From Propioniciclava soli (GTDB lineage: Bacteria; Actinomycetota; Actinomycetes; Propionibacteriales; Propionibacteriaceae): DNA of 64,000 nucleotides. The first letter of the stretch is position 1, and the number at the start of each line of letters is the position of its first letter. The DNA lies in the NCBI RefSeq assembly GCF_014858005.1, contig NZ_JACYOT010000006.1:62001-126000 (forward strand), given 5' to 3'. The position numbers and the translations under genes were made by a program. Positions 2,287-42,091 of the stretch are shown here, in pieces. Under the pieces are notes generated by a model. It was not told the origin of the DNA and did not search any database. It was given only the letters and a program-made list of their open reading frames with translations.

Positions 2287-2585
2287 GCCCACCTCCCGGT
2301 CCTGCCGGGCAGGTGAGCGCCAGCCTCCTGTGACTTCTGCTGCCACAGAGCCTTAACCCTCGACCTGCAAGAGGCGTGTCAGCTCAGAAAAGGCAGGGTG
2401 TGGCGGAGCTTCCTGAGTGCGGGCTGTCGTGAATGGACGTTGCTGGTCGATGGACTGGATGGCACTGGGCCGGCGACCGCGAGGACAGGTCAGCACGACG
2501 TAGTGGTGCACCTGACAGGTGACCAGCCCGGCGACACGACTCACGCGAGTTCTGGCCGGGGATCATCTCGTCAGCCGGAGCATTC
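2287..2585. other. Intergenic region between relaxase and methyltransferase; possible oriT
   Basis: No gene is seen in these 299 bases. The region contains the inverted repeat CACCTGACAGGTG (2509-2521), embedded in a copy of the GYGCACCTG motif found elsewhere in the element. Transfer origins often lie beside MobF relaxase genes, so this is a candidate oriT. No nick-site consensus was recognised. Confidence 0.3.
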
Positions 2586-3701
2586 ATGCACGACACACCG
2601 ACCGATCCCGCGAGTCCGCTGAGGATCGGTTCGCTCTTCTCGGGATACGGCGGCCTCGACCTCGCTGTCGAACATGTCTTCGGCGGAGAGACCGTCTGGT
2701 TCTCTGAGATCAATGAGCCCGTGGCCAGGGTCTTCGCCCACCACTGGCCCGACGCCCCGAATCTGGGCGACATCACAAGGATCAGCTGGTCGCAGGTCGA
2801 GCCCGTTGACATTCTGATCGGCGGCTTCCCCTGCCAAGACGTGTCCACCGTCGGCAAGCGCGCCGGTCTCGCACCCGGAACCCGCTCAGGTCTATGGGCG
2901 CACATGGGCACAGCCATCGAAGTGCTGCAACCCCAATGGGTCGTCGTCGAAAACGTCCGCGGTCTGCTCTCGTCCCCAGCCATCCGACCGATCACCGAAG
3001 GAGACGACAATGCCCCGCGCAACCCCTGCGCAGCAACCCCCGACGATACAGCCCTTCGCGCTCTGGAGCCCGACCCGTGGCATCTGGGAGACAGCGCAAC
3101 TCGACCTCTACGAGCAGCCGGCGCCGTACTCGGCGATTTGGCCGACCTGCGGATGGATGCACGATGGGTCGGTCTACCTGCTTCCCTTGTCGGCGCTCCT
3201 CACCCCCGGTTCCGCATCTTCCTCCTGGCCCAGCGTCAAGACGCTGTTCCGAACCCCGCTCGCGTCGGACTCGCTTCGAGGTGGAGAGACCCTGGACAAG
3301 GTGAAGGCGAGACGGGGCACGATCGCACTCTCGCACCAGATCATCGACCTCGCGCTCCACGGACCGGATGGCTCGCTCAGCAGGCACAGCGACTCGGCGA
3401 CGTTGTGGTCGCTGACCGAGGACATCTTCACCGCTGGGGACGCTATGCCCACGCCGTGGCTCGTTGGGAGCACATCACCGGACGAGTCGCACCAGCGCCC
3501 GCACTCCTGAGGAACGAGAATGGCCCGCGTCCAGCACCGGAGTTCGTGGAGTGGCTCATGGGACTCCCTACCGCCTGGCTCTCCGATCCACGACATGGCC
3601 TTCCGCCGAACCAGCAACTGATGGCGCTTGGCAATGGGGTCCTGCCTCTACAAGCGGCGATCGCACTGACTGCCGTGTCAGCGTTCTCGCCGCTTGGGTA
3701 G
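2586..3701 (+). CDS. DNA (cytosine-5-)-methyltransferase, Dcm family
   Basis: It transfers a methyl group from SAM to cytosine C5, probably shielding the element from host restriction. Motif I is GSLFSGYGGLDLAVE near the N-terminus. Motif IV, GGFPCQDVS, holds the catalytic Cys near residue 81. VVENVRGL is the ENV motif. PHPRFRIFLLAQ fits motif VIII, and MALGNGVLPLQA near the end is motif X. The length of 371 residues is normal for a solitary phage- or element-borne enzyme. No cognate endonuclease is visible. Residues about 142-308 are also covered in another frame by the nested gene at 3010-3510, an unusual arrangement. Confidence 0.9.
   Translation: MHDTPTDPASPLRIGSLFSGYGGLDLAVEHVFGGETVWFSEINEPVARVFAHHWPDAPNLGDITRISWSQVEPVDILIGGFPCQDVSTVGKRAGLAPGTRSGLWAHMGTAIEVLQPQWVVVENVRGLLSSPAIRPITEGDDNAPRNPCAATPDDTALRALEPDPWHLGDSATRPLRAAGAVLGDLADLRMDARWVGLPASLVGAPHPRFRIFLLAQRQDAVPNPARVGLASRWRDPGQGEGETGHDRTLAPDHRPRAPRTGWLAQQAQRLGDVVVADRGHLHRWGRYAHAVARWEHITGRVAPAPALLRNENGPRPAPEFVEWLMGLPTAWLSDPRHGLPPNQQLMALGNGVLPLQAAIALTAVSAFSPLG
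3010..3510 (+). CDS. Candidate overlapping gene nested inside the methyltransferase gene
   Basis: This 166-codon frame lies wholly within the methyltransferase gene in a different frame. Its ATG follows a strong Shine-Dalgarno sequence, GAAGGAG (2997-3003), at 6 bases. The product has features not expected of a random shadow frame: an aromatic-rich N-terminal half (LWSPTRGIWETAQ) and the segment LFRTPLASDSLRGG. The latter resembles the PTPxASDGxxGG stretch that I recall from small proteins encoded with methylases in actinobacterial phages. That recollection needs a database check. No function is assigned. It could instead be a fortuitous open frame in GC-rich DNA. Confidence 0.5.
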   Translation: MPRATPAQQPPTIQPFALWSPTRGIWETAQLDLYEQPAPYSAIWPTCGWMHDGSVYLLPLSALLTPGSASSSWPSVKTLFRTPLASDSLRGGETLDKVKARRGTIALSHQIIDLALHGPDGSLSRHSDSATLWSLTEDIFTAGDAMPTPWLVGSTSPDESHQRPHS

Positions 3702-3916
3702 CGGAGGCTACGCGACCGCCGGCCGCGATCACTCCGCTGGGTGAGCGGCGGGGGTGTCCCCGATGCGGTGATCCTGCGTTCGTAGGTCGGCCAGGCAGCG
3801 AGCAGTAGGAGCCCGTTGGCGCTCGGCGTGCTGGGGTCCGCGGTGTGGGTGGTGATTGAGAGGTGTGGGGTAGCGCGCTTTGTTGCCTGTTTGGGAGTCG
3901 TTGACAGGGGTTGGGC

Positions 3917-4867
3917 CTATGACGCGTCCGCGTTATCCATCCTCGTGGGTAGCCGGTGTAGTCGTATGACGAGTGTCGCCGCCGTGGCGAAGGCGGCGAA
4001 GATGGTGATGTTTGTGAGGGCGTCGGTCCATGAGATCGCCTGCGTTGCCCGGAGTTGCGCGATGCTGGAGGTCATTGCGGCGATGGAGTAGGCGCCGACA
4101 TTGTTGATGATGTGAGCCGCGATGCCTGCTTCGAGACCGCCGGTGAGGATCACGAGGGTCGAGGCGAGCAGCCCGAAAGCGAGTCTGTCTACGAACAGTG
4201 CGGCGTTCTGGACGCCATGGAGTGAGGCAAACACGAGTGACGATGCGGCGGCCCCGATCCAGGGGTTGGCGGTGAGTCTGGTCATCGACTGTAGTAGGTA
4301 GCCGCGGAAGAGGTACTCTTCGGCTGCGGCCTGCCACGGGGTGACGATTGCCACGACGACAAGGAAGCTCCACCACTGCGGCTGCGGCGCGAACTGGAAG
4401 GGCTGGCTTTGGAGGTAGCCGACCAGCAAGCTCCCGCCAAGGATGAGGATGGTCGCTATCCCGAGACATATCCCGAGATAGCCGCGGCGCAGACGTTGTT
4501 CCACCGAGGAGAGTTGTCCAAGCGGGGCACGGTGGAGTCGGGTCATCAGGAGCCAGCAGCACAGGAGCAGCCCGGCGATGGCGATGCCGTTCGCCGCGAG
4601 TCCGGTGGGTATCTGGTAGCTGGCGGCATAACTCTGAAAGTCGGTGAAAGGCACGTCGGGTGCTGTCACGTAGTGGGAGACGGCGGTGATCGCCAGCGAG
4701 ATCCATGGCGTGAGAGTGAAGTAGAACGCGAACGCGATGAGGATGCCGAGCAGCGCTGCGGGTCGTCCTGCTTGGCAGCTGAGCTGCTCAGCGTAGGTGA
4801 CCGGCGGCGCGGGCGAGGTCTTGTCCGTCCTGCTGTCTGGGTCCGGCTGATTGCTGGGATAAGCCAT
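3917..4867 (-). CDS. CPBP family intramembrane glutamic endopeptidase (CAAX protease-like)
   Basis: This is a multi-pass membrane protein of 316 residues with the Abi/CPBP signature. EEYLFRGYLLQ supplies the catalytic Glu pair and Arg, followed by the FASLHG and HIINN motifs with the metal- or substrate-site His and Asn residues. Family members cleave prenylated or other membrane-associated peptides and are often linked to bacteriocin immunity or envelope processing. It lies downstream of the DtxR-type gene on the same strand with a 74-base gap, so it may be read from the same transcript. Its actual substrate cannot be read from the sequence. Confidence 0.85.
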   Translation of the reverse strand: MAYPSNQPDPDSRTDKTSPAPPVTYAEQLSCQAGRPAALLGILIAFAFYFTLTPWISLAITAVSHYVTAPDVPFTDFQSYAASYQIPTGLAANGIAIAGLLLCCWLLMTRLHRAPLGQLSSVEQRLRRGYLGICLGIATILILGGSLLVGYLQSQPFQFAPQPQWWSFLVVVAIVTPWQAAAEEYLFRGYLLQSMTRLTANPWIGAAASSLVFASLHGVQNAALFVDRLAFGLLASTLVILTGGLEAGIAAHIINNVGAYSIAAMTSSIAQLRATQAISWTDALTNITIFAAFATAATLVIRLHRLPTRMDNADAS

Positions 4868-4941
4868 GTGCAGTGCTCTCTGTGTGCTCCCGTGAGCCCC
4901 GGCTGAGCGCTGTCCATGCCGAGGCCCTTCATTGGCGGAAC

Positions 4942-5652
4942 CTAGGCGGGACCAGGGGTGTGTGCTTCTGGGTCTGTTCGGGGGCTGACGCGTACTGCAA
5001 TGGCGGCCGGGAGGCCGAGGTCGATCGTAGTGTCGTCGACGGTGACCCGGACGGCCGCAGCCGCGGGGCTGACGTCGGTGACGGTAAGTCTGGTACCGAC
5101 CGAGATTCCGTGTCCGGTGAGGTAGCGGAGGATGTCGGGCGAGCGATCCGAGACGCGCAGCACTTGCACGGAGGTGCCGGGTTCGGCCTCGTTGAGAGCT
5201 TGGCTGTGATCGGGCGGGATCCGTCCGTCAGGGTCGGGGATCGGGGCTCCGTGGGGGTCGTGGGTGGGGTGCCCGAGTGCGGCGTCCATGCGGTCCAGTA
5301 CGAGGTCGGAAACGGCGTGCTCCAGGTGGTTCGCCTCGTCGTGGACCTGGTCCCAGGACAGCTCTAGATGCTCGACGAGATAGGTCTCCACGATTCGGTG
5401 TCGTCGAACGATGTCTATCGCGATTGCGCGCCCGTCGTCGGTCAACTCGATTGGGCCGTAAGGCTCGTAGGAGATGAGTCCGTCGCGGGCGAGTCGTTTT
5501 AGGTTGGCCGAGACGGTCGAGGGAGTCACGCCGAGTTGGGCGGCTAGGTCTGTTGTAGAGGGCTCCCCGCCAGGCCATTCGTGGGCTTTCCAGATCAGCG
5601 TTACATAGTCCTCGACCATGCGGGTGGCAGGAGAGCGCTTCATCGGGGTCAT
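4942..5652 (-). CDS. DtxR/MntR-family metal-dependent transcriptional regulator
   Basis: The N-terminal winged helix (DLAAQLGVTPSTVSANLKRL, about residues 35-54) is followed by a dimerisation and metal-binding domain with the typical VETYLVEHL...WDQVHDEANHLEHAVS pattern, then a C-terminal SH3-like domain (about 155-225). Family members repress or activate genes in response to Fe2+ or Mn2+. The stop of the upstream CaCA exchanger lies one base before its ATG, so the two are co-transcribed. With the Mn2+ riboswitch in front of that exchanger, manganese is the more likely co-metal here. Confidence 0.88.
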   Translation of the reverse strand: MTPMKRSPATRMVEDYVTLIWKAHEWPGGEPSTTDLAAQLGVTPSTVSANLKRLARDGLISYEPYGPIELTDDGRAIAIDIVRRHRIVETYLVEHLELSWDQVHDEANHLEHAVSDLVLDRMDAALGHPTHDPHGAPIPDPDGRIPPDHSQALNEAEPGTSVQVLRVSDRSPDILRYLTGHGISVGTRLTVTDVSPAAAAVRVTVDDTTIDLGLPAAIAVRVSPRTDPEAHTPGPA

Positions 5653-5653
5653 C

Positions 5654-6907
5654 CTAGGCGTGGGTGTCCATAACGGTCTTCGGCTCGTCTTGATCGACTG
5701 CGGGCTGCTCGTGGAAGGGCGCGACGAGTGTGGGGAGGATGCTGTGTCGATGAGCGACGAGGAAGCCGATGGTGAGGGCGAGGTGGATGGCGCTCAGCAC
5801 GTACCGTCCGGTGGTGTCAGTGATGAGGAACTGGACGCCGAAGAGCGCGGCGAGCCCGATCGCGGACCACCAGTGGAACCGCAGCGCGAGGATGATTGCC
5901 ACCCCGAGCAGCGTCTGGGTGGCCGTCAAGGTGAACTCCTCGACTTGGCGGCTGTCTAGAGCCAGCGAACTGGGTCCACCGCCCAGGAAGTGCGCCACGG
6001 GCAGTGAGCCGACCAGCAGGCTCCACTGGTTGACCTTGGATGCGATCAGCGTGCCGATGGCAGCCACACCTTTGCCGCGGGCGGCGAACATCACCGCGAT
6101 GATGAACTCCGGGGCCTCCGAGGCTAGCGGGGCGAGCCACTGAACCAGAAAGTAGCTGTCGATGCCGAGCGCCGAGCCTGAGGCGACTAGTGCATCGGCG
6201 AACGGTTCGGCTGAGATCAGGATCACCGCCCCGGAGACGAGGAACATCGCCACGACGAGAATGCGCCTCGGTCGGGCGTCAAGCCCGGCAATCAGCGCTG
6301 CCGCGCCTACGAACTCCTCCTGGTCAGCGTCGTAGGTCTGCGCGGCTCGCCATAGATGGAGGCCGAACACGACGATGAGACCGACCCCGAACCACAGCGG
6401 GATGCTCCCGATGAGCGGGATCACGAACGCGACGAGCCCGAGGATAGCGAGGAAGCCGACGTCTCGTCGGCTGGCAACAGGCAGCTCCAGCGCATTGGGG
6501 GTGGGTGCATCGTCCCGGCGTGCCTGGCGGCGCGCGACGACGAGTGCGACGACCACGACGAGGGGCCAGCCGAAGCCGAGTAGCAGCCGGTTCGAGCCGG
6601 TCATGTTCGCGGCCGCGAAGTGGAGGTAGGACGGATCGGAACCGGAGCGGTAGGCGTAGTACAGGTCTACGGCATACTCCGGGAGAACTGCGATCAGTGC
6701 CAGCAAGGCAATGGCGAGGGCGCCCGAGATGTCCTTCTGGGCGGCTTCGGCGGCCCAGGCGAGAAGGAACGCTGCTGCCACCACAGCCGCGCCGAAGACG
6801 ACTACCTCAGCCACTGCTGAGAACTCAACTCCCAACACACGGATGGCGACGGCTGGGCCTGCAACGAGTAGACACAGCAGGACGCGGCGGATCAGGGCAG
6901 CAGGCAT
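5654..6907 (-). CDS. CaCA-superfamily cation exchanger (sodium/calcium exchanger family), likely Mn2+/Ca2+ efflux
   Basis: A 417-residue membrane protein with two inverted alpha-repeats. The first has AVLPEYAVD and AAANMTGSN. The second has SEAPEFI and GTLIASKVNQWSLLVGSLP. These correspond to the GNxxPE and GSN ion-site motifs of CaCA exchangers. A long hydrophilic stretch between the repeats includes AQTYDADQEEF. Upstream lies a yybP-ykoY riboswitch, whose known ligand is Mn2+ and which normally switches on manganese exporters. Manganese export is therefore the best guess, although the family as a whole is calcium-centred. It forms an operon with the DtxR-family gene. Confidence 0.86.
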   Translation of the reverse strand: MPAALIRRVLLCLLVAGPAVAIRVLGVEFSAVAEVVVFGAAVVAAAFLLAWAAEAAQKDISGALAIALLALIAVLPEYAVDLYYAYRSGSDPSYLHFAAANMTGSNRLLLGFGWPLVVVVALVVARRQARRDDAPTPNALELPVASRRDVGFLAILGLVAFVIPLIGSIPLWFGVGLIVVFGLHLWRAAQTYDADQEEFVGAAALIAGLDARPRRILVVAMFLVSGAVILISAEPFADALVASGSALGIDSYFLVQWLAPLASEAPEFIIAVMFAARGKGVAAIGTLIASKVNQWSLLVGSLPVAHFLGGGPSSLALDSRQVEEFTLTATQTLLGVAIILALRFHWWSAIGLAALFGVQFLITDTTGRYVLSAIHLALTIGFLVAHRHSILPTLVAPFHEQPAVDQDEPKTVMDTHA

Positions 6908-6924
6908 TGGGCACTCCAGGTCAA

Positions 6925-7058
6925 GGCCGTGGCCGAAGGTCTCGTTCGCCTCGCAAAATGAGGTGCTACGCCGGGCGGATCAAGATGACCGCCAGCATGT
7001 CGACGCACCGCGTCCGAACCGAGGGCCTGGACGGAACTACTCCCCTTCGAGTTCCACC
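6925..7058 (-). promoter_or_regulatory. yybP-ykoY manganese riboswitch (candidate)
   Basis: Read on the minus strand, the leader of the exchanger contains both conserved cores of this riboswitch class: GGGGAGTAG (7038-7046) and ACGAGACCTTCGGCC (about 6929-6943). CGAAGG just before the first core can pair with CCTTCG of the second, the expected closing helix. The second core ends about 20 bases before the ATG at 6907, suitable for control of translation or early termination. Boundaries are approximate. Confidence 0.78.
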
Positions 7059-9600: not shown

Positions 9601-9671
9601 CAGCGCTCCTCGTCCGGACACGCCCAGTGTAGTTGGGCGACACGGCCTGGCGGAGGCAATCGGCGAGCGGG

Positions 9672-11186: not shown

Positions 11187-11189
11187 CGC

Positions 11190-14462: not shown

Positions 14463-15085
14463 CGGCCCTGAACGGCTGGATCGCGCTGGCCTTGTACCTG
14501 ATCGGTCTCGGTCTGGCCTTCGGCTTTCGAGCGGTGGTGCACCTGCGCCGCAACGGAGATACGGGGTTCCGACTCAAAGCAGGTGCGGCGGGCTCCGCCC
14601 GATGGTGGGGGAAGTTGCTGTTCGCGGTCGCGCTGCTGCTCGGACTGGCAGGCCCGGTGACGCAGATCGTCGGCATCGGACGCCTGACCATCCCCGGCGG
14701 CACGATCGTGGAAGGGATCGGGCTGGTCCTTGCACTGCTCGGGATGAAGACGTTGCTGCGGGCGCAGCGGGAGATGGGCGCTTCCTGGCGGGTTGGCGTC
14801 GACCCGGAGGAGCACACCGAGATGGTGACCGATGGGACCTTTGCGATGGTGCGCAACCCGGTGTTCTCCGGGATGGCTGTGTCAAGCGTCGGGTTGTTCC
14901 TGCTGGCCCCGACGATCGCGGCGACGGCGGCGACCGTCGTGCTGCTCGCCGCCATTCAGGTACAAGTCCGGGCGGTCGAGGAACCCTACCTACTCGCCGT
15001 TCACGGCGACGCCTACCGCGACTACGCCGCTAGAGTCGGCAGATTCGTCCCAGGCGTTGGGCACAGCCTTCGCGGCCTCAGGTAG
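14459..15085 (+). CDS. Isoprenylcysteine carboxyl methyltransferase-like integral membrane protein
   Basis: 208 residues starting at GTG, which overlaps the ATPase stop (GTGA). Four or five membrane segments precede the ICMT/PEMT C-terminal core: VRNPVFSGM, then EEPYLLAVHGDAYRDYAARVGRF. The RNPVF and EEP motifs form the SAM site. In bacteria these proteins methylate small thiols, phospholipids or unknown membrane substrates. Co-translation with a metal pump suggests a role in metal or membrane stress. The substrate is unknown. Confidence 0.83.
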   Translation: MTALNGWIALALYLIGLGLAFGFRAVVHLRRNGDTGFRLKAGAAGSARWWGKLLFAVALLLGLAGPVTQIVGIGRLTIPGGTIVEGIGLVLALLGMKTLLRAQREMGASWRVGVDPEEHTEMVTDGTFAMVRNPVFSGMAVSSVGLFLLAPTIAATAATVVLLAAIQVQVRAVEEPYLLAVHGDAYRDYAARVGRFVPGVGHSLRGLR

Positions 15086-20054: not shown

Positions 20055-20650
20055 TTGCCCGCTGCCACGTCTTGGATCAGACCCACCAGGGTCGATTCTG
20101 TGGTCTCGCCGATGATCCGGGCAGCGACCCGGCCCTCCAGGTCGACCACGATCGTGCTTGGGATGGCGTTGGGCGGCAACTCGCCGGAGAAGTTCAGCAG
20201 AAGCGCACCCTCAGGGTCGAACAGGTTCACATAGGGAACCTCGAATGCCCGCACGAACGCACGGGGCGCGGCCTTGTCGAAGTCTCGGGTGTTCAACCCG
20301 ACGAAGACTGCCTGGTCGGCAAGCTTCTGGCTGGCGGCCACGAGCGCGGGCGCCTCGGAGCGGCATGGCGCGCACCAGGAACCCCACACGTTGTAGACGA
20401 TCACCTTCCCGGAGACGTCAGCACTCGTCCACCGCTCGTCATCCAGCGTGACGCCCTCGATCACGGGCGCCTGCGGACGCTCATCGGCAGGCAGCACCGC
20501 CAGGCTGCCATCACCCGACACGAACCCTCCAGTGTTGGCTTGTGCCGACCCGCAACCCGCGAGCAGAACACCCGACGCGATCGCAACGGCCGCGCTCCAG
20601 AGCCGGCGCCTGACCGTGTGCGGAAGGCTCCCAATGTGCGACCGTTGCAC
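20051..20650 (-). CDS. TlpA/ResA-like thioredoxin lipoprotein
   Basis: 199 residues. A signal sequence with lipobox LLAGC (Cys33) is followed by a thioredoxin fold with the active site WCAPC (92-96), the TlpA insert and a cis-Pro loop (IPSTIVVD). It reduces disulfides outside the membrane, fed by CcdA, whose gene overlaps it. In this island it may keep exported metal-site thiols reduced. No cytochrome c genes are seen nearby, so a dedicated cytochrome role is less likely. Confidence 0.9.
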   Translation of the reverse strand: MQRSHIGSLPHTVRRRLWSAAVAIASGVLLAGCGSAQANTGGFVSGDGSLAVLPADERPQAPVIEGVTLDDERWTSADVSGKVIVYNVWGSWCAPCRSEAPALVAASQKLADQAVFVGLNTRDFDKAAPRAFVRAFEVPYVNLFDPEGALLLNFSGELPPNAIPSTIVVDLEGRVAARIIGETTESTLVGLIQDVAAGK

Positions 20651-27249: not shown

Positions 27250-27339
27250 CGGTGACAGGTCATGGCCAGGGCATCGGCAGAAAAGGGAACGCGTTCGTGG
27301 GAGCGGGTGCGCACCTGTCTGCCAGGAGGTGCCGACACG

Positions 27340-28230
27340 ATGACCACACCCACCACCACAACCACCACCGGCAGCGACCAAACGGCGTTCGGGGCTGAGG
27401 ACTTCACCACCGGCGAGGGCCTACGCGCCTTGCTGAACCGGCTTTGCGAGAGCGGCGAGGACGCCTGGGTTCACGACCCGGTCGCACGGAAGTTGATGGA
27501 GTTCGCTGCCGATAAGTACGCGGCTCTGGCCAGGAAGCACAAGCTGGATACCTGGGAGGCGGCCACGGCGGCGTTCGATGCGATGCAGTACCGCTCGACC
27601 CGGGAGGCGAACGATCCGTGGGCGATCATCACCCACGCCGTGCGGATCACCTGCGTGTACGAGGAACGGGCCCAAGGTCTGCTGTGTTCGGTGCATCAGG
27701 CGCGCCGTGCGCATGTCTCGGCGTTCCACGATCCTGAACGGTTCTGCGACCGGGACACTCCTCTGGCCGACTACCATCCCGCGTTCCACACCACCGATCC
27801 CCACGACGATCCCGGCGAGCCGGCCGACAGTGAGGAGCTGAGGTCGGGGCAGGCCTGCCGCTCGGCCACGTCGGCGGCCGAGGATGCGATGGTGCTGCTG
27901 GGTCTGCTGGGTTGGCCCGCGGATTTGGCGCGGGCGTCGGTGGAGCATGTGTGCGGTGCGCTGATGAAGTCCGGCAGCCGTCAGGCCGCCGCCGAGGCGC
28001 TGCGCCGCGACCGGCACGTCCGAGCGCTGCTCGACCTGCCACGCCGCTCGTGGAACGTGCTGTTGAAGGCGTTGCTCGGGAACCCGGACCCTGCCTACCG
28101 GGCCACCAGTGCCGGGCGCGGGGTGCTGCTGCGGCTCCTGGTCGGGGAGACCTTGGATGTGTTGCTGCGCGACGACGACCTGATCCTCGCCCTCGCGCTC
28201 GCCGCGCCCGTCGGCCGAGGGGGCGAGTGA
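27340..28230 (+). CDS. Hypothetical replication/transfer-associated protein
   Basis: 296 residues from ATG 27340, with AGGAGGT upstream. It is helix-rich, with WEAATAAFDAMQYRSTREAN and PWAIITHAVRITCVYEERAQ in the N-terminal half and an unstructured acidic stretch near 150-170. The order resembles sigma-factor-like or RNA-polymerase-associated element proteins, but no catalytic or DNA-binding motif is clear. It is followed directly by the ParB-like gene (TGATG overlap). A GCGCACCTG motif (27309-27317) lies in its leader. Confidence 0.65.
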   Translation: MTTPTTTTTTGSDQTAFGAEDFTTGEGLRALLNRLCESGEDAWVHDPVARKLMEFAADKYAALARKHKLDTWEAATAAFDAMQYRSTREANDPWAIITHAVRITCVYEERAQGLLCSVHQARRAHVSAFHDPERFCDRDTPLADYHPAFHTTDPHDDPGEPADSEELRSGQACRSATSAAEDAMVLLGLLGWPADLARASVEHVCGALMKSGSRQAAAEALRRDRHVRALLDLPRRSWNVLLKALLGNPDPAYRATSAGRGVLLRLLVGETLDVLLRDDDLILALALAAPVGRGGE

Positions 28231-29233
28231 TGTCTGAGGCGCAGATCGGGAGCATCCAGCTCGACCGCACGGTGGAATCTATCCTCGTCGGACATCGGCA
28301 CCGCGTCGACCTGGGCGACATTGATGCGCTGGCGGCGTCCATCGAACGCGACGGACTCCTGCAGCCGATCACGATCACCATCGACGGCGTGCTGATCTGT
28401 GGGGCGCGGCGGCTGGCGGCGATCAAGCAGCTGGGTTGGCGCACCGTGAACGTGTGGGTGCGCAGTGGTCTGTCCGACCGGCTCGGACAGCTCCTCGCCG
28501 AACAGGACGACAACACCCTTCACAAGCCGCTCAGCCAGCTGGAAGCTGCCGGGTTGTACCGGGAGTTGAAGCAGCTGTTCGCCGAGGACGCCGCCCGCCG
28601 GAAGTCGGCGACGCAGTTCAGCAGCGAGAACCAGCCGGGAAGCGACGGTCCCGCAAAGTTTGCGGGACCGTCCAGTGCGCTTGGTGAGGCGCGGGCACAG
28701 GCTGCCGCGATGATCCCCGGCGGCGCGTCCCACACCACCTTGGAGAAGATCGGCTACCTCGAAGCCATCGCCGCCGACACCACCCAGCCCGAAGCCTTGC
28801 GGGCGGAGGCGGCCGCCGGTTTGGAGCGAATCGAGGCCGGCGACCCGGTGCATCCGATCTACCAGACGATCCGCGAGACGATGCCACCGCCAGGCAGCGG
28901 CGTGAGGCTGAGTTGCAAGCCCGTGCCGAGGCGGCGGTTGCTCGCGCGAAGGCGAGCAAGAAGGGAAAGCGGACCCCGCTGCGCTCCCTGCCCGTCGCTG
29001 GGGATGAGGGAGAGCCGGTGCGTTACCCGGTGCGGGCGTTCGTGCAGACCTGGGGCGAGTTGGCCGGCTGGTGGACCCACTACGACGCTGACGACCTGGC
29101 CGTCCACCTCACCGATGAGCAGGTCGAGAACTTCCTGACCACGGCTGAAGGCACCAGCCGGTTCGCCGACGACCTGCGCGCCGCCCGCACCCCCGACGAG
29201 GAACCAGGACCACCGCTGCTCCGCGCCCTCTGA
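28230..29233 (+). CDS. ParB/RepB-type N-terminal nuclease-like domain protein, frameshifted
   Basis: The N-terminal ParB domain is intact: VDLGDIDALAASIERDGLLQPITI, ICGARRLAAIKQLGW and EQDDNTLHKPLS. The frame from 28230 then runs into Arg/Pro-rich nonsense after about residue 218 and stops at 29138. A different frame from about 28885 to 29233 gives a coherent C-terminus (ARQRREAELQARAEAAVARA, then GELAGWWTHYDADDLAVHLT). The two parts read as one protein broken by an indel near 28880. No slippery heptamer is seen, so this is mutation or sequencing error. It likely served partition or plasmid-stage replication. Confidence 0.75.
28644..28672. repeat. Perfect 14-bp inverted repeat inside the ParB-like gene
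   Basis: GACGGTCCCGCAAA and its exact complement are separated by a single G. It lies in the linker between the ParB domain and the C-terminal part, encoding DGPAKFAG. It may be a binding site for the encoded protein or for another regulator. As an RNA hairpin it would be very stable. Confidence 0.7.
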
Positions 29234-29269
29234 GCTGAAGCGTGGGTGCTCTTGGTGCACCTGGCAGGC

Positions 29270-29953
29270 ATGAATCCTGCCGATCCCGATCCTCGTTCAC
29301 GCCGTCGCCTGGCCGTCCTTCTTGCCGCAGGCGTCGTCTTGCTCCTGCTTGCTGGCGTGGGCGTCTACGGCCTCCTCACCGGCCCCCGCACCACGACCAC
29401 TGGTAGCCAGACATCCACGCCGTCGCCCGACGTGAAACCCTCGGCCACGGTCTCGCCGTCTCTGCCTCAGCTTCCGGCAGTGGCGCGCTCGGCTGACCCC
29501 GAGGTGTTCGCCCGGAACGTGGCCACAGCCTTGTTCGCGTGGGACACCGCCTCGGGGCTCCTACCGCTGGACTACGCCTCGGCCATCCTTGGCGTTGGCG
29601 ACCCCTCCGGCGACGAACAAGCCGGACTCGCCTCCGACATCTCCACCTACCTGCCGACCCGAAACGCCTGGATCGAACTGCGCCAGCACGCCACCCGCCA
29701 GCACCTGGTCATCGACACCACGGTCATCCCCGACGCCTGGGGAGAGGCGGTGGAACAGGCGAACCCCGGACAGCTGGCCCCCGGGACGGTCGCGGTGACG
29801 ATCGAGGGCACCCGCCACCGCGCCGGCGTGTGGAACGGCCAACCCGTGACCTCGGAGCATCCGGTCGCGTTCACCATGTTCATGGTCTGCGCACCCTCCT
29901 ATCCGACCTGCCACTTGCTGCGCCTGTCGCAGCTCGACAACCCGCTGCGCTGA
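29270..29953 (+). CDS. Membrane-anchored conjugation protein, VirB8/TcpC-like candidate
   Basis: 227 residues. One N-terminal membrane helix (about 15-36) is followed by a Thr/Ser/Pro linker and an extracytoplasmic domain (about 70-225). Size, topology and position ahead of the other secretion genes fit a VirB8/TcpC-type component. There is no strict motif to confirm this. A GTGCACCTG element (29255-29263) sits directly before its ATG, where a normal ribosome binding site would be. Confidence 0.62.
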   Translation: MNPADPDPRSRRRLAVLLAAGVVLLLLAGVGVYGLLTGPRTTTTGSQTSTPSPDVKPSATVSPSLPQLPAVARSADPEVFARNVATALFAWDTASGLLPLDYASAILGVGDPSGDEQAGLASDISTYLPTRNAWIELRQHATRQHLVIDTTVIPDAWGEAVEQANPGQLAPGTVAVTIEGTRHRAGVWNGQPVTSEHPVAFTMFMVCAPSYPTCHLLRLSQLDNPLR

Positions 29954-31920: not shown

Positions 31921-32078
31921 CCCACACCCCAGAGTCTTGCGACTGCCCGCGCCCCCGGGGGTGCGGGCATCGTCACGTCTATCGAACGGCAGCCAGGGCG
32001 GGGTGTTGGGTGCACCTGTGGTGCGTACCCCGCTCGCGCCGTCTGTGCGTGGGCCTGTCCGTGTCGAGGAGTCCTGCT

Positions 32079-32402
32079 GTGTTCGATCTACTCACCACCA
32101 CCGCTTCGTTCCTGCCGCTGCTGGTGCCGATGGACATCACCATCGACCCGAACACCAACGGCTTGCCTGGGATCAACCAGCTGCGCACCATCGTGGGCGC
32201 GGTCATGACCATCGGCCTCATCCTTAGCGTGCTGGCGTTGATCGTGTCGGCGATCGTGTGGGGCTTCGGCGCCAACTCCTCCAACCCGCACCTCGCCTCC
32301 CGGGGGAAGGTCGGCGTGCTCGTCTCCTGTGGTGCGGCGGTGATCTGTGGCGCGAGCGTCACGCTGGTCAACTTCTTCTGGGGCGTCGGCCAGTCCGTCT
32401 GA
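32079..32402 (+). CDS. Small two-helix conjugation protein, pilin/DUF6112-like (copy B)
   Basis: 107 residues from GTG 32079, with GAGGAG upstream. It begins with an extra N-terminal hydrophobic segment (LLTTTASFLPLLVPM) that may be a cleaved signal, followed by the two-helix unit shared with the gene at 31654. Tandem copies could give a mixed pilus or separate channel roles. A GTGCACCTG motif (32010-32018) and a 158-base gap separate them. Confidence 0.75.
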   Translation: MFDLLTTTASFLPLLVPMDITIDPNTNGLPGINQLRTIVGAVMTIGLILSVLALIVSAIVWGFGANSSNPHLASRGKVGVLVSCGAAVICGASVTLVNFFWGVGQSV

Positions 32403-33799: not shown

Positions 33800-33807
33800 A
33801 CCCGCGC

Positions 33808-35274: not shown

Positions 35275-35277
35275 GTA

Positions 35278-36135
35278 TCAGTAGACATCGAAGATCTTCT
35301 CTCTCGTCTCTTCGTCCTCCACCCAGGTGACGCGGAGCTTCGCTCCGTCGACGCCTGCTGACAGGGCAATCGGCAGCCTGCGCGTTGTCTTCTTGTGCAA
35401 GGTCGTCGGCTGACTAGGTGCGATGACGCGCAACATCCCGGCTGCGGTAATGCTCTCGAAGCTCACCTGTTCGGCGTCCTGGTCGCCATCGTTGGTCACC
35501 TCCAGCCAGCGTTTCGTCCGATATCGGGGCGCGCCCTTCTTGTCGACTCCTGAGACCTCGCGTTCCTGTTGAGGCTGAACCCGGATGTCCACGCCTGACG
35601 GCGTGATGACTGCTGGTGCTGCGCCCGCGAGTCCAAGCGACGAGATGTCGAACTCGACAGCTTTCCATACCTCGTGTCCGAGCTGTGCGGTGGTGGCGAA
35701 CTCACCGAGTAGTCCGCGTTGGCTGATCTCGGTTCGGAACTCGCGTAGCCCATCGAGTTGGCGCGTGTCGACATCGTTGGGGAGCGCGGCGGTCGAGAAG
35801 TAGAGGTGAACGGGCTTACCGGCATCGACGGCCCGTTGAATCTCCTCGACCGTTCCGGACACGGCATCGGGGGTCGGGGAGCCCAGCCGGCTACCGAACA
35901 GTGCGAAGACGATGTCCGACTCGTCGACCCCCTGAGCGTTGATGAGGGACTGGGGATGACCGCCAAGGAGTGGCACGGACGAGGTCTCCCACCGCCACGG
36001 CAACAAGACGATCTGCTTGTTCTTGGCGTTGGCGTTGTTCCAGTCGTTGATGGCTGCCTCGACGGCATCGCGGGCGTCGGGGATGTCTGAGGGTGAGGCG
36101 ATCATGACCCGCAGCACCGAGGCAGTGAAACTCAT
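35278..36135 (-). CDS. DUF4062/TIR-like domain protein, probable defence cargo
   Basis: 285 residues. The N-terminal domain (about 1-165) has the pattern of DUF4062-type TIR-like proteins: SVLRVMIASPSDIPDARDAV, IVLLPWRWETSS, DIVFALFGSRLGSPT, SGTVEEI and KPVHLYFSTA. The C-terminal part (about 190-285) is an Ig-like or beta-rich domain of unknown role. Such proteins are common in defence islands and resemble nucleotide-cleaving sensors, though activity is unproven here. It lies on the minus strand inside the plus-strand transfer operon, as an inserted cargo gene. Confidence 0.8.
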   Translation of the reverse strand: MSFTASVLRVMIASPSDIPDARDAVEAAINDWNNANAKNKQIVLLPWRWETSSVPLLGGHPQSLINAQGVDESDIVFALFGSRLGSPTPDAVSGTVEEIQRAVDAGKPVHLYFSTAALPNDVDTRQLDGLREFRTEISQRGLLGEFATTAQLGHEVWKAVEFDISSLGLAGAAPAVITPSGVDIRVQPQQEREVSGVDKKGAPRYRTKRWLEVTNDGDQDAEQVSFESITAAGMLRVIAPSQPTTLHKKTTRRLPIALSAGVDGAKLRVTWVEDEETREKIFDVY

Positions 36136-36224
36136 GCCTCAAAGGGTATTGGTCGACGCCCACATCCCGCGCGGGGAAGGCGCACCTGGCTACTGAACCA
36201 GTTCCGTTCCAGCCGGAGGCCCAG

Positions 36225-37052
36225 ATGCCCACCTTCCATGATCCTGTTGCCGATGCCGCGGAAGCATCCCAGGCCCTGCGAGGCCTGGCCCACGCGAGCC
36301 GAGCCTTCGAGCGGCCTGCCGAGATGTACGGGGTGATCGGGGACCTGTCTTCGAGTATCCGTTCGCTGCGGCAGTCGTTGGAGCAGCTCGCCGATGTCCA
36401 TGAACGCAAGGCTGCTCACGCCTTCAACGACGACGGTGATCACGACGCCGGGGTGCGGGACGCGCTCGCGGCGGCGGAGGAGCTGCGCCAATGCGCCCTG
36501 CTGGTCGACCGGGCCGACGACCGACTCTCGGCCGGGTTCATTGCCGCGGGGCGGATCGCCTGGCACCCCGAACCGGCACCTGAGCCGGTGGCGGAGGAGC
36601 CGGTGCCGCAGTGGATCAGTGTGGTGTTCCTTCAAGGCGATGAGGCCGACGAGGTCCTCGATCTGATCGACGCTCAGGGCATTGATGCGGCGTTCGAGCA
36701 CCTGGCCGGCTACGACTACGGCGATGAGACCGTCGAAGCGGCGATCGCCAACGGGCACGTCTACGACCAGCCGCAGGCTGGTGCGGCTGACCGGACCGCG
36801 ACCCAGGACGTGTACACCCTGACCTACAGCTCACTGCTGGGCCATGTCGGTCTCTACCGCGAGGCCACCGCGCTACCAGACCCGGCGCTGCTCGGCATCG
36901 ACACCCCGTTCACCGTCGGCCCCGCGACCGACGCCACGACGACGGCCACCAAAGCAGCGCCACCACGCCGCAGCGCCGGACCGGCTGGCCGCGACTGGTT
37001 CGCCGGCCCCGCAGCTGGTGATGCCGCCGGTCGTCGGGAGTTATCGCTGTGA
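36225..37052 (+). CDS. Hypothetical transfer-operon protein with two modules
   Basis: 275 residues. The first module (1-110) is helical (ALRGLAHASRAF, IRSLRQSLEQLADVHE). The second (about 125-230) begins QWISVVFLQGDEADEVLDLI and ends TYSSLLGHVGLYREA. A disordered linker and tail (GRDWFAGPA) close the protein. The two halves could be a fusion of originally separate element proteins. It overlaps the VirB4-like gene by four bases (GTGA). A GCGCACCTG motif at 36180-36188 precedes it. Confidence 0.68.
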   Translation: MPTFHDPVADAAEASQALRGLAHASRAFERPAEMYGVIGDLSSSIRSLRQSLEQLADVHERKAAHAFNDDGDHDAGVRDALAAAEELRQCALLVDRADDRLSAGFIAAGRIAWHPEPAPEPVAEEPVPQWISVVFLQGDEADEVLDLIDAQGIDAAFEHLAGYDYGDETVEAAIANGHVYDQPQAGAADRTATQDVYTLTYSSLLGHVGLYREATALPDPALLGIDTPFTVGPATDATTTATKAAPPRRSAGPAGRDWFAGPAAGDAAGRRELSL

Positions 37053-38560
37053 GCGAGCACGAGCGGCTGCACACCGCTGTTCTGGTTGCCCCGGCGAAGG
37101 AACGCCGCCGGCTCCGTAGGCAGCGCCGCCGCGCCGAGGTCAGGTTGCACGCCGAGCAGCGCAAGGCCGAACTGGCGGCGGTGAGAATGAAGGCCGAGCG
37201 GGAGCGGGCCGAACGGCGAGCAACCACGTTCCTGCCGCGGGTGGGTGACCCGGGACCGGCGGCGCTGCGGTCGCCGGGCTGGTTCCGGCTGACCCGGCAT
37301 CAGGACACGTCCGCGACATTGGCGGGGGCCTATCCCTTCGTGGCCGAAGGTGGTCTCGGCGCGGACGGGGTGTTCATTGGCCAAGACCTTTACAGCGGCG
37401 GCTCGTTCGTCTACGACCCGTGGGTGTTGTACTCCCGCGGCCTCATCACCGCACCGAACGTCGTGCTGGCCGGGATCGTCGGCTCGGGCAAGTCCTCGTT
37501 GGCGAAGTCGCTGTACACGAGGTCGCTTCCCTTCAACCGGCGTGTCTATGTGCCCGGTGATCCGAAGGGTGAACACACCGCGGTCGCCAACGCGGTCGGT
37601 GGTCGGGCCATCGTGCTCGGCCACGGGCTCAACACCCGGCTGAACCCCCTCGACGAGGGCCACCGGCCCAGCGGCTTGTCGAACGTCCAGTGGGCCAGCA
37701 CGGTCGCGTCCCGCCGTCGTGACCTGATCGGCGCACTCGCCGAGACCGTCCTCGCCCGGGGGTTGACGCCGCTGGAGCACACCGCGATCGACCTGGCCCT
37801 CACCCACACGGTGCGAGAGAACCATGTGCCGATCCTGCCGATGGTGGTCGATCACATCCTCAACCCCAGCTCGGATGCCGACGGCCGGCTGGCTGAGGAT
37901 GGCCGGCTCGTCGGCCACGCGCTGCGCCGCCTGGTCGCCGGGGACCTGGCCGGCCTGTTCGACGGACCGTCCACCGTCGCCTTCGATCCGAGCCTGCCGA
38001 TGATCAGCCTCGATCTGTCCCGAGTCGCGGAGAACTCGACCCTGATCTCGGTGTTGATGACGTGTTCGTCGGCGTGGATGGAGTCCGCGCTGCTCGACCC
38101 TCATGGTGGGCAGAGGTGGGTCATCTATGACGAGGCGTGGAGGCTGATGAGCTATCCATCCTTGCTCCGCCGGATGGACGCCCACTGGCGTCTGGCTAGG
38201 CATTACGGGCTGGCGAACATGCTGATCTTCCATCGCCTCGGCGACCTCGACAACGTCGGCGACCAAGGCTCCGCCATGCGCTCCCTGGCCAACTCACTGC
38301 TCGCGAACGCCGAGACCCGGATCGTCTACCGGCAGGAGTCCGACCAACTCGGCTCGACCGCGACCGCGCTCGGCCTCAGCCGCACCGAACAACAGCTCTT
38401 GCCGAACCTGGGCGTCGGTCAAGGGCTGTGGCGGATCAAAGCGCGCAGCTTCGTCTGCCAACACCAACTCCATCCCGCCGAACTCGCCCTGTTCGACACC
38501 AGCAGCCGCGCAGCGGCACGCACACCGACGCCGCACCTCATGGAAGGAACATCCCGATGA
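37049..38560 (+). CDS. VirB4-like conjugation ATPase (C-terminal half type)
   Basis: 503 residues. A charged N-terminal coiled coil (about 15-60) precedes the ATPase core with Walker A GIVGSGKSSLAKS near residue 148 and Walker B WVIYDEAW near 355, followed by HWRLARHYGLANMLIFHRL and a C-terminal RecA-like half. It energises pilus assembly and substrate transfer, presumably together with the SCO6880-type protein that supplies the missing N-terminal domain. Start GTG 37049 is coupled to the previous gene. Confidence 0.9.
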   Translation: MSEHERLHTAVLVAPAKERRRLRRQRRRAEVRLHAEQRKAELAAVRMKAERERAERRATTFLPRVGDPGPAALRSPGWFRLTRHQDTSATLAGAYPFVAEGGLGADGVFIGQDLYSGGSFVYDPWVLYSRGLITAPNVVLAGIVGSGKSSLAKSLYTRSLPFNRRVYVPGDPKGEHTAVANAVGGRAIVLGHGLNTRLNPLDEGHRPSGLSNVQWASTVASRRRDLIGALAETVLARGLTPLEHTAIDLALTHTVRENHVPILPMVVDHILNPSSDADGRLAEDGRLVGHALRRLVAGDLAGLFDGPSTVAFDPSLPMISLDLSRVAENSTLISVLMTCSSAWMESALLDPHGGQRWVIYDEAWRLMSYPSLLRRMDAHWRLARHYGLANMLIFHRLGDLDNVGDQGSAMRSLANSLLANAETRIVYRQESDQLGSTATALGLSRTEQQLLPNLGVGQGLWRIKARSFVCQHQLHPAELALFDTSSRAAARTPTPHLMEGTSR

Positions 38561-39663
38561 GTGACACCCCGATTCCCCGGTTCCGTCTCGACAGCCCGGC
38601 CGACATGGCCCAACTCGTGCCCTACCTGATCGGCTTCGCACCCGAAGAATCATTGGTGATCGTGGTGATCGACGACCAGCAGGTCCAGGTCACCGCCCGA
38701 GCCGATCTCGCCGAAATGCGGCAGCCCGGTGCGGCCGAGGATGTGCTGGATCGCATCTGGGCACGGTTCCCGACCGCCGACGCAACCCTGATCGCCTACA
38801 CACAACACCCCGAGACGGGCTGGGCGCTCCTGGAACGCAGCGCCGACCACCTTCCCGACGCTGTGCTGCGACAGACCATGCTCGTCAACCAGGACACCTG
38901 GCACCTTCCCGACGGCACCCACGGCCACCTCAACCCATCGAGCCGCATCACCGCCGAGGCCGCCCACCACGGCCTCCGAACATTCACCCACCGCACCGAC
39001 CTAGAAGCCCGGTTCGCCAGCGCTCCCGACAGCCCCGAACTCGCCAAGGCCGTCCGGGCGGCCCTCGACGACCTCCCGCGACATCGCGACCTCCCCGCAC
39101 TCCTGAACCACACCCGCGATCTTCTGCACCGCAACCTGAGCACGCGCACACCGTTCGGCTCAGGTCGGCCCTCGACGCCGATGAGCACCACGGACGCCGC
39201 CCAGCTGGCGCACCTCGTGAAGAACCGGCAGGCACGCGACTTCGCCCTCGCGTCGATCACCAAAGCCACCGCGCCTCGCCATCTGGCGCTGTGGAGCGAA
39301 GTCCTGAACCGTACGCCCAACAGCTTCGCCGAGGTGCCGGCGGTGATCGCCGGGATCGCGGCCTGGGTCGCCGGCGACGGCGCCAGCGCCAACATAGCCC
39401 TGACCCGCACACAGGCCGCCACCACCCGGCTCCGCGTGTCCGGGCCGGCCGAACTGCTGGCAGCCGTCATCGACCAAGTACTGCCGCCCTCGGCTTGGCC
39501 CTCGGTACGAGGCCGGATTCTGGAACACGCCGGCCAGGCCGTCCACCACGCCCTCATCACCCACATCCGCGGCACCCAGACCACCACCACGGCGGCCAAC
39601 GCATTCACGCCTGAGGCTGGCCGCTCCCGTCCAACGACGACGCACACCGGTCCCACGCTGTAG
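38557..39663 (+). CDS. DUF4192 domain protein
   Basis: 368 residues. It matches DUF4192: FRLDSPADMAQLVPYLIGFAPEESLVIVVI at the N-terminus with the conserved GFxPxxSLV core, and a helical C-terminal half. The family is widespread in actinobacteria and often sits in element transfer operons. Its biochemical role is not known. ATG 38557 overlaps the VirB4-like stop. Confidence 0.85.
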   Translation: MSDTPIPRFRLDSPADMAQLVPYLIGFAPEESLVIVVIDDQQVQVTARADLAEMRQPGAAEDVLDRIWARFPTADATLIAYTQHPETGWALLERSADHLPDAVLRQTMLVNQDTWHLPDGTHGHLNPSSRITAEAAHHGLRTFTHRTDLEARFASAPDSPELAKAVRAALDDLPRHRDLPALLNHTRDLLHRNLSTRTPFGSGRPSTPMSTTDAAQLAHLVKNRQARDFALASITKATAPRHLALWSEVLNRTPNSFAEVPAVIAGIAAWVAGDGASANIALTRTQAATTRLRVSGPAELLAAVIDQVLPPSAWPSVRGRILEHAGQAVHHALITHIRGTQTTTTAANAFTPEAGRSRPTTTHTGPTL

Positions 39664-39696
39664 CCCCGGCGCGCCGGGGCAGGCGCACCTGGTGGC

Positions 39697-40236
39697 ATGA
39701 GGAAACACACTTCCGAACCGGTTCCCATGCCGGTCACGATCCCGACCGTCCTGCTCCAGGTCCGCGCCGACGGCACCCTGGACGCCACCATTGACGGCCA
39801 CCCCCTGCTCCCACCAGAAGGAATCGGCCGGTGGCGACGGTCATCGCTGCCGCAGATCATCGACCACGCCAGCAGGGATCGGAGCCTCCCGGTGCGGATC
39901 GAAGTCCACGAAGTCGACCAGACCGTCTTCACCGACATCATCAGCGCCCGCCCACGCCCACCCGCCCCAACTGCCGAGACCGACCCCGAGCCGGGACCAC
40001 GACGCGGCCGACGCGCACTCCCACCCGAAACGCCACGCCTGGTCGAAGTCAGCGGGGACGGGTTCGTGCCGGGCGAAGACGTCGCCCTCGCCGTCATCGT
40101 CGGCCATACCGACGCCACCGGAACCGGCACGGCTCGGGCCATCGTCGATCTCGACGACCTGTCGATCGGAGCGACCAGCGAGGTGCTCCTGTTTGGCCGT
40201 ATCTCGGGCACGAGCACGGTCCGGCGGCTCGCATGA
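39697..40236 (+). CDS. Hypothetical protein upstream of the coupling protein
   Basis: 179 residues. The N-terminal beta-rich part (TVLLQVRADGTLDATIDG) and the C-terminal part (LVEVSGDGFVPGEDVALAVI) are joined by a Pro/Arg linker. The C-terminal stretch ends with a beta pattern found in FHA- or Ig-like accessory domains, without a firm match. It overlaps the TraD-type gene (ATGA) and is probably translated with it. GCGCACCTG (39683-39691) lies directly ahead. Confidence 0.65.
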   Translation: MRKHTSEPVPMPVTIPTVLLQVRADGTLDATIDGHPLLPPEGIGRWRRSSLPQIIDHASRDRSLPVRIEVHEVDQTVFTDIISARPRPPAPTAETDPEPGPRRGRRALPPETPRLVEVSGDGFVPGEDVALAVIVGHTDATGTGTARAIVDLDDLSIGATSEVLLFGRISGTSTVRRLA

Positions 40237-42005
40237 CCCAATACCAGTCGGGGAGCATGGGTGACGAACTCACCAACGCCGCCCTCATCGGCCTGATCGG
40301 CATCTTCTGTATCGGCCTCGTCCTACGCGCGTCCGGCACCATCACCGCCGTCCTGACCGGCACGGCCCAGCCCACCGTGGGGGCAGCAGGCGGTATTGCC
40401 GTCCTGTTCAGCCCCACCGACCCCGCCACGGCGCTGGGCGCGGACGGACTCGATCCTGTCATCTACTGGCTCGTCAGCGCCGGCCTGCTCGGCGCACTCA
40501 CCGCCACCGCCGTGTGGGTGTGGACCCTCCTGCGCCGTCAGACTCGTATAGCCGAGGCCGACCCGCACCGGCTGGCCGGAATCGCCACCAGCCACGAGGT
40601 GAAGACGACCGCCTCCGCGAAAGCCCTCCTGCGCCGCGCCAGCACCCTGCGACCCTCCCTGGAGTCGCCCACACCGCAGGATGTGGGCTACCTCCTCGGG
40701 GCCAGCCGCGGCACGAAGGTGTGGGGATCCGTCGAGGACTCGATCCTGCTGATCGGCCCACCCCGCTCCGGCAAAGGCCTCCATGTCGTCATCAATGCGA
40801 TCCTCGACGCCCCCGGCGCAGTCGTCACCACCAGCACCCGACCCGACAACCTCACCGCAACTCTCCGCGCCCGACAACGCAAGGGCGGGCCAGTCGCCGT
40901 GTTCGACCCCCAGCACCTCGCCGAAGGCATCCCCGCCGGACTGCGCTGGTCACCGGTACGCGGCTGCCACGACCCGCTCACCGCGATGATCCGCGCCAAC
41001 GGCCTCGCCGCCGCCACCGGGCTGTCCGCCGGCGGGGTCGAGTCCGGCGGGTTCTGGGAAGGCAAGACCCGGACCGCGCTCCAAAGCCTGCTCCACGCCG
41101 CGGCGCTCGACGGTCGCCCGCCGGCGGAGTTGTTCAGATGGACTCTCGACCCCAGCGCCGCGTCCGAGGCCGTCGCCATCCTCAACTCACATCCGAACGC
41201 GGCGATGGGCTGGGACGACTCGTTGGCCGCGATGATCGACGCCGACCCCAAGACCCGCGACAGCATCTGGCAAGGCGTCTCCCTCGCCCTCGCCGCCCTG
41301 GCGGACCCACGCGTCCTCGATGCTGTCACCCCCGGACCCGGTGAGACTTTCGACCCCGCAACCTTCCTGACCGAACAGGGCACTCTCTACTTGCTCGCGA
41401 CCGGCGCCGGCGCCGGTGCATCCGCCGCACTCGTGGCAGCGTTCGTCGAAGACTTGATCGAAACTGCCCGCAACCTCGCCGCTCGCTCACCCGGCGCGCG
41501 GCTCGACCCACCACTGCTTTTGGCTCTCGACGAGATAGGCAACCTCGCGCCCCTGCCGTCGCTGCCGGTGTTGATGGCCGAGGGCGGCGGGACCGGGGTC
41601 ACCACCATGCCGGTGCTGCAATCTCTCGCCCAGGCCCGCGACCGGTGGAGCGAACACCAAGCCGGTGCGATCTGGGACGCCTCCATTGTCAAGATCATCC
41701 TCGGCGGCGCGTCCAACAGCCGCGACCTCCAAGACCTCTCCACCCTCATCGGCGAACGCGACGAATACACCAACTCCGTGACGTTGGGCGATCACGGGAC
41801 CCGCTCCAACCAGCGCTCCATCCGACGCGTCCCGATCCTGCCACCAGACCGAATCCGCACCCTGCCCTTCGGGACCGGGATCACTCTGCTCCGTTCTGCG
41901 CCGCCGATCGTGACCGACCTGCGCGCCTGGCCAAGCCGTCCGGATGCAGCCCAACTCCGCCACGACCGCGACGAACTCGAAGCTCTCTTGCGCCGCCCCT
42001 CCTGA
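40233..42005 (+). CDS. TraD/VirD4-type coupling protein
   Basis: 590 residues. Two N-terminal membrane helices (about 15-35 and 70-95) are followed by the ATPase: Walker A LIGPPRSGKGLHV near residue 178 and LLALDEIGNLAPLPSLPVL as Walker B near 430. The segment GGGTGVTTMPVLQSLAQARDRW matches the TraM-recognition/TraD_C region. It links the relaxosome to the secretion channel. Relatives in this element type are normally encoded near SSB and the integrase, as here. Confidence 0.9.
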   Translation: MTQYQSGSMGDELTNAALIGLIGIFCIGLVLRASGTITAVLTGTAQPTVGAAGGIAVLFSPTDPATALGADGLDPVIYWLVSAGLLGALTATAVWVWTLLRRQTRIAEADPHRLAGIATSHEVKTTASAKALLRRASTLRPSLESPTPQDVGYLLGASRGTKVWGSVEDSILLIGPPRSGKGLHVVINAILDAPGAVVTTSTRPDNLTATLRARQRKGGPVAVFDPQHLAEGIPAGLRWSPVRGCHDPLTAMIRANGLAAATGLSAGGVESGGFWEGKTRTALQSLLHAAALDGRPPAELFRWTLDPSAASEAVAILNSHPNAAMGWDDSLAAMIDADPKTRDSIWQGVSLALAALADPRVLDAVTPGPGETFDPATFLTEQGTLYLLATGAGAGASAALVAAFVEDLIETARNLAARSPGARLDPPLLLALDEIGNLAPLPSLPVLMAEGGGTGVTTMPVLQSLAQARDRWSEHQAGAIWDASIVKIILGGASNSRDLQDLSTLIGERDEYTNSVTLGDHGTRSNQRSIRRVPILPPDRIRTLPFGTGITLLRSAPPIVTDLRAWPSRPDAAQLRHDRDELEALLRRPS

Positions 42006-42091
42006 CCTCACCGCTGGAACGACGAGCGCACCTGTCCATCACAGCGACTGCGAGGTGTTGGTCGCGTGAGGTGTGACAAGGAGACATCCCG

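Follow-up and report, generated by a model that had tools for sequence, protein, structure and literature searches.

A functional parallel to the locus discussed here comes from Pseudomonas, in which the integrative and conjugative element (ICE) ICEclc encodes BisDC, an activator that, according to the sections of the source on which we draw, raises its own expression and drives downstream ICE promoters (PMC7423338). Among actinobacteria, the ICEs BreLI and RUSTI have been described from cheese bacteria, and the parts of these reports used here list a ParB protein, conjugal transfer proteins and SSB for BreLI (PMC6579920, PMC5526665). The present analysis concerns a 64,000-nt stretch of DNA from Propioniciclava soli (hereafter the window), and within it the element at positions 2000-45000, a large-serine-recombinase ICE, present whole or for the most part, that carries type IV secretion genes and in which the 9-mer GYGCACCTG recurs between genes. 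We propose, with a probability of about 0.58, that this motif belongs to a core promoter private to such elements and read by P0001, a protein of 296 aa encoded at 27340..28230 on the plus strand, which would activate its own gene as well as transfer, coupling-protein and SSB genes. Our literature search found nothing on what turns on transfer in actinobacterial type IV ICEs, and no paper on the motif or on the protein, whose family is nameless and hence not searchable by name.

The sequence-only reading of the window had pointed to seven intergenic plus-strand copies of the 9-mer, and all seven are present, the last one beginning at 42026 rather than 42027; it was also correct in placing copies 5 to 60 nt ahead of start codons. 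The whole window contains 11 copies (8 on the plus strand and 3 on the minus strand), compared with a mean of 2.8 and a maximum of 9 over 100 shuffles. On our own gene map, seven of the eight plus-strand copies and none of the three minus-strand copies are intergenic. The intragenic copy noticed earlier near 14538 is there, at 14537, but it is not the only one, as three more lie within genes on the minus strand (9768, 9852 and 16418); even so, the intragenic copies (one plus, three minus) are fewer than the seven intergenic plus-strand copies. The excess over chance claimed for these seven was borne out: the genome-wide count (340 in 2 x 3.80 Mb; 263 for a reversed control pattern) leads to an expectation of 0.13 intergenic plus-strand copies (Poisson P about 1e-10), the intergenic DNA being slightly overestimated with one gene start taken as 32121 rather than 32079. 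Furthermore, among all 7-mers of the element's intergenic DNA (2915 bases), GCACCTG ranks first with 7 copies, the runner-up having 4. Because the motif was picked after being seen, the replicates provided by related elements and by a second ICE weigh more than the P value.

Related elements were taken from one TraG-based scan that gave 78 loci (L001-L078), with titles nearly all from Actinobacteria, and they carry the motif at the same gaps as the window. Neither outcome that the sequence-only reading had named as refuting its observation, similar counts within genes or on the minus strand, or absence from these gaps in relatives, was obtained. The 9-mer occurs in these loci 157 times in the sense and 40 times in the antisense direction, and its most regular position is directly after traG, ahead of the SSB gene. 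In a non-redundant set of 122 stretches, the sense and antisense counts were 132 and 41 for GYGCACCTG and 114 and 27 for GG-N10-GCACCTG, while altered control patterns with the same N10 gave 63 and 50 (GCTCCT), 114 and 151 (CGACCT), and 144 and 104 (CG in place of GG). A divergent second ICE is present in the same genome on contig C34, and the motif is found in all six of its matching gaps, two of them as variants (CACCTT in the ssb gap and CACCTA in the g275 gap); its five exact 9-mers either precede matching genes or lie in a single additional gap. A matrix built from 72 sites of L001-L078, from which the window and C34 were excluded, ranked five of the seven window sites (29255, 27309, 42026, 32010 and 39683) as the five top hits in the window element, and of its six top hits in the C34 ICE, five fell in matching gaps and one was the additional site at 20216. 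Three of the 21 marker query proteins (g322, g29271 and g32120) were in the wrong frame, which makes their hit counts and labels meaningless, and they also served as gene marks for the matrix scan and for the set of 44 sites described below.

The motif is longer than first noted: it reads GG-N10-GCACCT(G/C) and is followed 6-7 nt on by a pyrimidine-purine (YR) step; where genes seem to be leaderless, the start codon is at this very step. This extension was seen in 44 non-redundant sites obtained from 141 near-gene sites, a set that left out copies within gene matches, those more than 200 nt from the next match, those near locus ends, and 14537. Relative to the 9-mer, G was found at -10 in 34 of the 44 sites and at -9 in 32, G at +12 in 39, a pyrimidine at +14 in 37 and a purine at +15 in 38. 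The same picture was obtained from 41 further stretches, none of which overlaps the loci behind the 44 sites: the GG peak is at exactly -10 (39/61 sense vs 5/18 antisense sites, P 0.014), variants ending in CACCTC, CACCTA or CACCTT keep the GG (31/63 sense vs 5/39 antisense, P 2e-4), and ATG is at +15 in 10 of 61 sites and at any other offset in no more than 3. Neither a conserved -35 element nor a host-type -10 was found among the 44 aligned sites.

In the window, where all sites are on the plus strand and predicted start sites are positions read from the sequence as the YR step or a leaderless ATG, the complete motif precedes four genes. Site 1 (27299..27324, GG-N8-GCGCACCTG, 9-mer at 27309-27317; matrix score 20.9, rank 2 in the element) is 22 nt ahead of the ATG of the P0001 gene at 27340, with the predicted start at A27324. 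Site 2 (29245..29270, GG-N8-GTGCACCTG, 9-mer at 29255-29263) has the highest score (22.8, rank 1), and the ATG at 29270 is itself the predicted, leaderless start. Site 3 (32000..32025, GG-N8-GTGCACCTG, 9-mer at 32010-32018; score 17.7, rank 4) precedes a small DUF6112-like gene with a GTG at 32079, and site 6 (42016..42041, GG-N8-GCGCACCTG, 9-mer at 42026-42034; score 20.4, rank 3) is 57 nt ahead of the SSB gene (42092). At site 4 (36180..36195, GCGCACCTG at 36180-36188; score 13.7, rank 10), CG replaces the upstream GG and a gene at 36225 follows; relatives have a site in the same gap. GC takes the place of GG at site 5 (39683..39697, GCGCACCTG at 39683-39691; score 16.0, rank 5), for which the ATG at 39697 is the predicted start. 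The outlier, GTGCACCTGACAGGTG at 2506..2521 (CG for GG; score 13.3, rank 12), precedes a gene (2586-3701) that had been taken for a relaxase gene, but its Pfam match is to C5 cytosine DNA methylase. The inverted repeat that had been noticed there is a perfect dyad of 13 bp, CACCTGACAGGTG, which among the loci examined recurs only in L003, ahead of a methylase homolog, and it may be a separate control site.

A core promoter fits these observations better than an operator or an RNA signal because orientation and spacing are fixed. The promoter-like traits are the single orientation, the single distance to the start codon in leaderless genes, the YR step at the expected start, and CACCTG at the place of a -10 hexamer. 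Transcription would begin at the purine 6-7 nt past the last base of the motif, which would put GG near -25/-24 and GC near -13/-12. GG-N10-GC is the spacing of sigma-54 promoters, and it is present here with the predicted start about 12 nt past GC; however, sigma-54 (RpoN) was found neither in the genome of the window (0/1) nor over the cut-off in any of 33 related hosts, with one weak match at E 5.7e-4. We suggest that the promoter is read by P0001 acting as an element-encoded transcription specificity factor, which would activate its own gene in a positive feedback together with the transfer, coupling-protein and SSB genes. The motif with its extension, orientation, spacing and conservation is observed, as is its place ahead of the P0001 gene in relatives; the start sites, the binding of P0001 to the motif, and activation rather than repression are what we infer from the sequence.

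Kor proteins of RK2 silence transfer genes, and a repressor operator overlapping the start site, through which a regulator would silence the transfer genes of these elements, would likewise be at home in an autoregulated regulon on a mobile element. The dyad at 2506 and a partial dyad at the P0001 gene would agree with such an operator, but the base counts of the 44 sites are asymmetric and dyads are found at these two places only. In addition, the single orientation and single start distance across many elements, the conserved YR step, and the absence of a separate conserved promoter further upstream speak for a promoter, and we consider silencing through an operator quite improbable. The earlier suggestion of an operator of a master regulator is thus retained in that the motif picks out a regulon specific to the element, which probably has a master regulator of its own, and revised in that the motif appears to act as a directional part of a core promoter, set at a constant distance from the predicted start site, and not as a free operator.

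Control at the RNA level, in which CACCT in the leader would mask the Shine-Dalgarno sequence or be bound by an RNA or a protein, had also been raised because of the likeness of CACCT to the anti-Shine-Dalgarno core. This likeness has a counterpart at one gene, that of P0001, where GCACCT faces the Shine-Dalgarno sequence AGGAGGTGC and can pair with it, a pairing that may add local control there. In the leaders of SSB genes (23 aligned; L055, which was cut short, and L051, L060, L069 and L080, in which the pattern failed, were left out), the bases just past the motif can pair in part with the Shine-Dalgarno region, as an outer stem with 52-67% of cells paired. However, several sites are 5-6 nt ahead of an ATG, leaving no Shine-Dalgarno sequence to mask, and the motif is upstream of the predicted 5' end in seemingly leaderless genes, while the conserved GG sits 9-10 nt further upstream still. 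The 23 leaders yield no consensus fold, and the best hairpin, helix 3 (42044..42065 on the plus strand, within the 5' leader predicted for the SSB gene; 87.7% of cells paired, both-side changes in 2 of 6 pairs), is downstream of the motif and excludes it. At the gathering threshold, the only Rfam matches in the window are three tRNAs. An RNA-level signal as the general function of the motif is therefore abandoned here as highly improbable.

P0001 is the likely reader of the motif, as judged from where its gene and the motif occur. The libraries searched give its family no name. Of 40 genomes in which such ICEs occur, 34 encode it; in the class as a whole it was found in 17 of 296 genomes, two of them weakly. 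The exact 9-mer occurs within 110 nt upstream in 32 of 62 entries of the family (the window gene being counted twice), usually at -31 to -28, and in several other entries the chosen start codon is upstream of the motif site. GG-N10-GCACC precedes the gene in 26 of 40 family members (<80% identity); in the antisense direction the count is 7 of 40. When upstream regions were aligned on the core only, without use of GG, which was possible for 25 of the 40 members, G was found in 25/25 and 22/25 at the two GG positions. Relatives of P0001 down to about 33% identity retain the motif ahead of their own gene.

The gene directly downstream (28227..29138, plus strand) encodes a ParB-like protein (Pfam ParB_N, E 1.2e-5, 25.7 bits, just below the cut-off of 26.3), which could be a partner of P0001 or a rival reader. 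A ParB match is present in 33 of 42 stretches with P0001, directly downstream where the coordinates are known. The two proteins could form a two-part activator, comparable to BisDC, that aids the ordinary sigma factor of the host at promoters with a poor core; the sections of the ICEclc report used here describe a ParB domain in BisD and activation by BisDC of its own and of downstream ICE promoters (PMC7423338). However, nine of the 42 stretches have no match to ParB, nor to SCO6880, VirB4 or TraG, and eight of these nine keep the upstream site, as CACCTC. For this reason the ParB-like protein is unlikely as the sole reader. Furthermore, the -10 position falls within the motif, and a conserved host-type -10 or -35 was not seen, so that we regard the two-part activator as unlikely. 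Of the nine stretches, the one examined in more detail, L113 on contig C5 of the window's genome, encodes a serine recombinase as well as a TrwC relaxase.

Several observations weigh against the proposal that P0001 reads an element-private promoter. Only four of the seven window sites have GG (36180, 39683 and 2506 do not), and the scores of 36180 and 2506 are within noise. The shorter form GYGCACCTC is barely strand-biased in the 122 stretches (68 sense vs 53 antisense; 51 vs 33 with GG). The strict pattern is missing in 14 of the 40 P0001 family members, and some of the 26 with it may have it by chance, given 7/40 antisense. The strict leaderless pattern is noisy genome-wide, with matches in 71 of 296 genomes (10 of 17 with P0001 vs 61 of 279 others), and, except in one genome (G000), its sites are on another contig than P0001 or at least 30 kb away. 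Searches of Pfam, NCBIfam, PHROGs and PDB sequences showed neither a recognisable domain nor a convincing match for P0001 itself. In addition, shared descent accounts for part of the association between P0001 and the motif, because the two are linked on one piece of DNA and because the nine stretches that have no ParB match, with P0001 identities of 42-47% and alike in the alignment, look like one subfamily. Finally, the motif is retained in six of the 40 ICE genomes without a P0001 match in single-protein and profile searches, as would be expected if a host factor (a housekeeping or extracytoplasmic function (ECF) sigma factor, or a host regulator) read a motif that the element merely exploits. 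These six ICEs, however, look incomplete, with genes missing or broken; in L065, for instance, the loss extends from P0001 through the first part of the gene corresponding to that at 29270. Moreover, the motif accompanies P0001 in stretches where nine other window proteins mostly have no match (L129 alone matches, with primase and ArdC). The last base of the motif upstream of the P0001-family gene also differs between elements of one host, being CACCTG in C54, the contig of the window, and C34 and CACCTC in C5 and C18; this argument is weak because the last base varies within C34 too (CACCTT and CACCTA at two gaps). We consider reading by a host factor very unlikely.

As to what kind of protein P0001 might be, residues of about 60-125 resemble sigma region 2 by eye, which is a guess to which profile comparison gives no support, and the C-terminal part of distant relatives looks, again by eye, like a helix-turn-helix. 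A sigma identity of P0001 found no support in hhalign comparisons with alignments built on 30 sigma loci from relatives, in which nothing was significant: the best E was 0.024, for 14 columns that lie elsewhere than in the expected region, and 0.16 in a second comparison, region 4 being compared only through a full-length ECF alignment. In profile comparison with PDB, the matches were to designed helical repeats and to a tail protein, with E 0.0083 at best. A broader idea, that P0001 founds a mobile-element sigma-like family for GC-rich -24/-12 promoters in bacteria without sigma-54, found across Actinomycetes on transfer-competent ICEs and on relaxase-bearing elements without transfer genes, is tentative, and we think it doubtful.

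The ICE of the window encodes TraG, SCO6880, DUF6112, M23 peptidase, SSB, primase and ArdC-like proteins, as well as VirB4-like and SCO6881-like proteins that score below their curated cut-offs, and its cargo is of a metal type, with multicopper oxidase and P-type ATPases. Three tRNA genes on the minus strand (45140-45728) are directly past the serine recombinase gene, where the right end of the ICE may be, and a minus-strand DUF4062 gene (35278-36135) is located between plus-strand transfer genes. With the family also present on contigs C5 and C18, this one genome has four P0001-family genes on four contigs, namely C54, C34 (L079/L080), C18 (L112) and C5 (L113). Homologs were found neither in viral contigs nor in phages, and in one plasmid record, from Microbacterium (L232, 9001-9731), in which the match falls into two parts and lacks a listed gene, the gene table of that collection being incomplete. 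In L209 and L222, direct repeats of ~18 bp (TCAAGCATCGTGACAACC type), iteron-like, are located upstream of distant P0001 relatives.

The motif allows the regulon to be read off such elements and provides a candidate master regulator. For BreLI and RUSTI, likened here by description only, no promoter motif or transfer master regulator is described in the parts of the two reports that were used (PMC6579920, PMC5526665). Promoters of ECF and sigma-70 factors are similar in having an element at -12 to -7, but differ in that no conserved -35 is found here. Sigma-54 (-24/-12) promoters are alike in the GG-N10-GC spacing and the start distance; their consensus has TTGCA, in contrast to GCACCTG here, and no RpoN over the cut-off was found in the hosts tested. 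The spacing of the promoter is like that read by sigma-54, a factor that the searches did not find in these hosts. Should P0001 redirect RNA polymerase on its own, it would represent a specificity factor of a new kind. With BisDC the likeness is in function: BisC resembles FlhC, whereas P0001 matched no named family in the library searches, and no DNA motif is described for BisDC in the portions of the report considered (PMC7423338). BisD and BisC act together, according to the same portions, whereas P0001 also occurs without a ParB match. Among the systems compared, BisDC of ICEclc is the nearest functional parallel, being, in the sections used here, an activator that the element itself encodes, that increases its own expression and that has one subunit with a ParB domain (PMC7423338).

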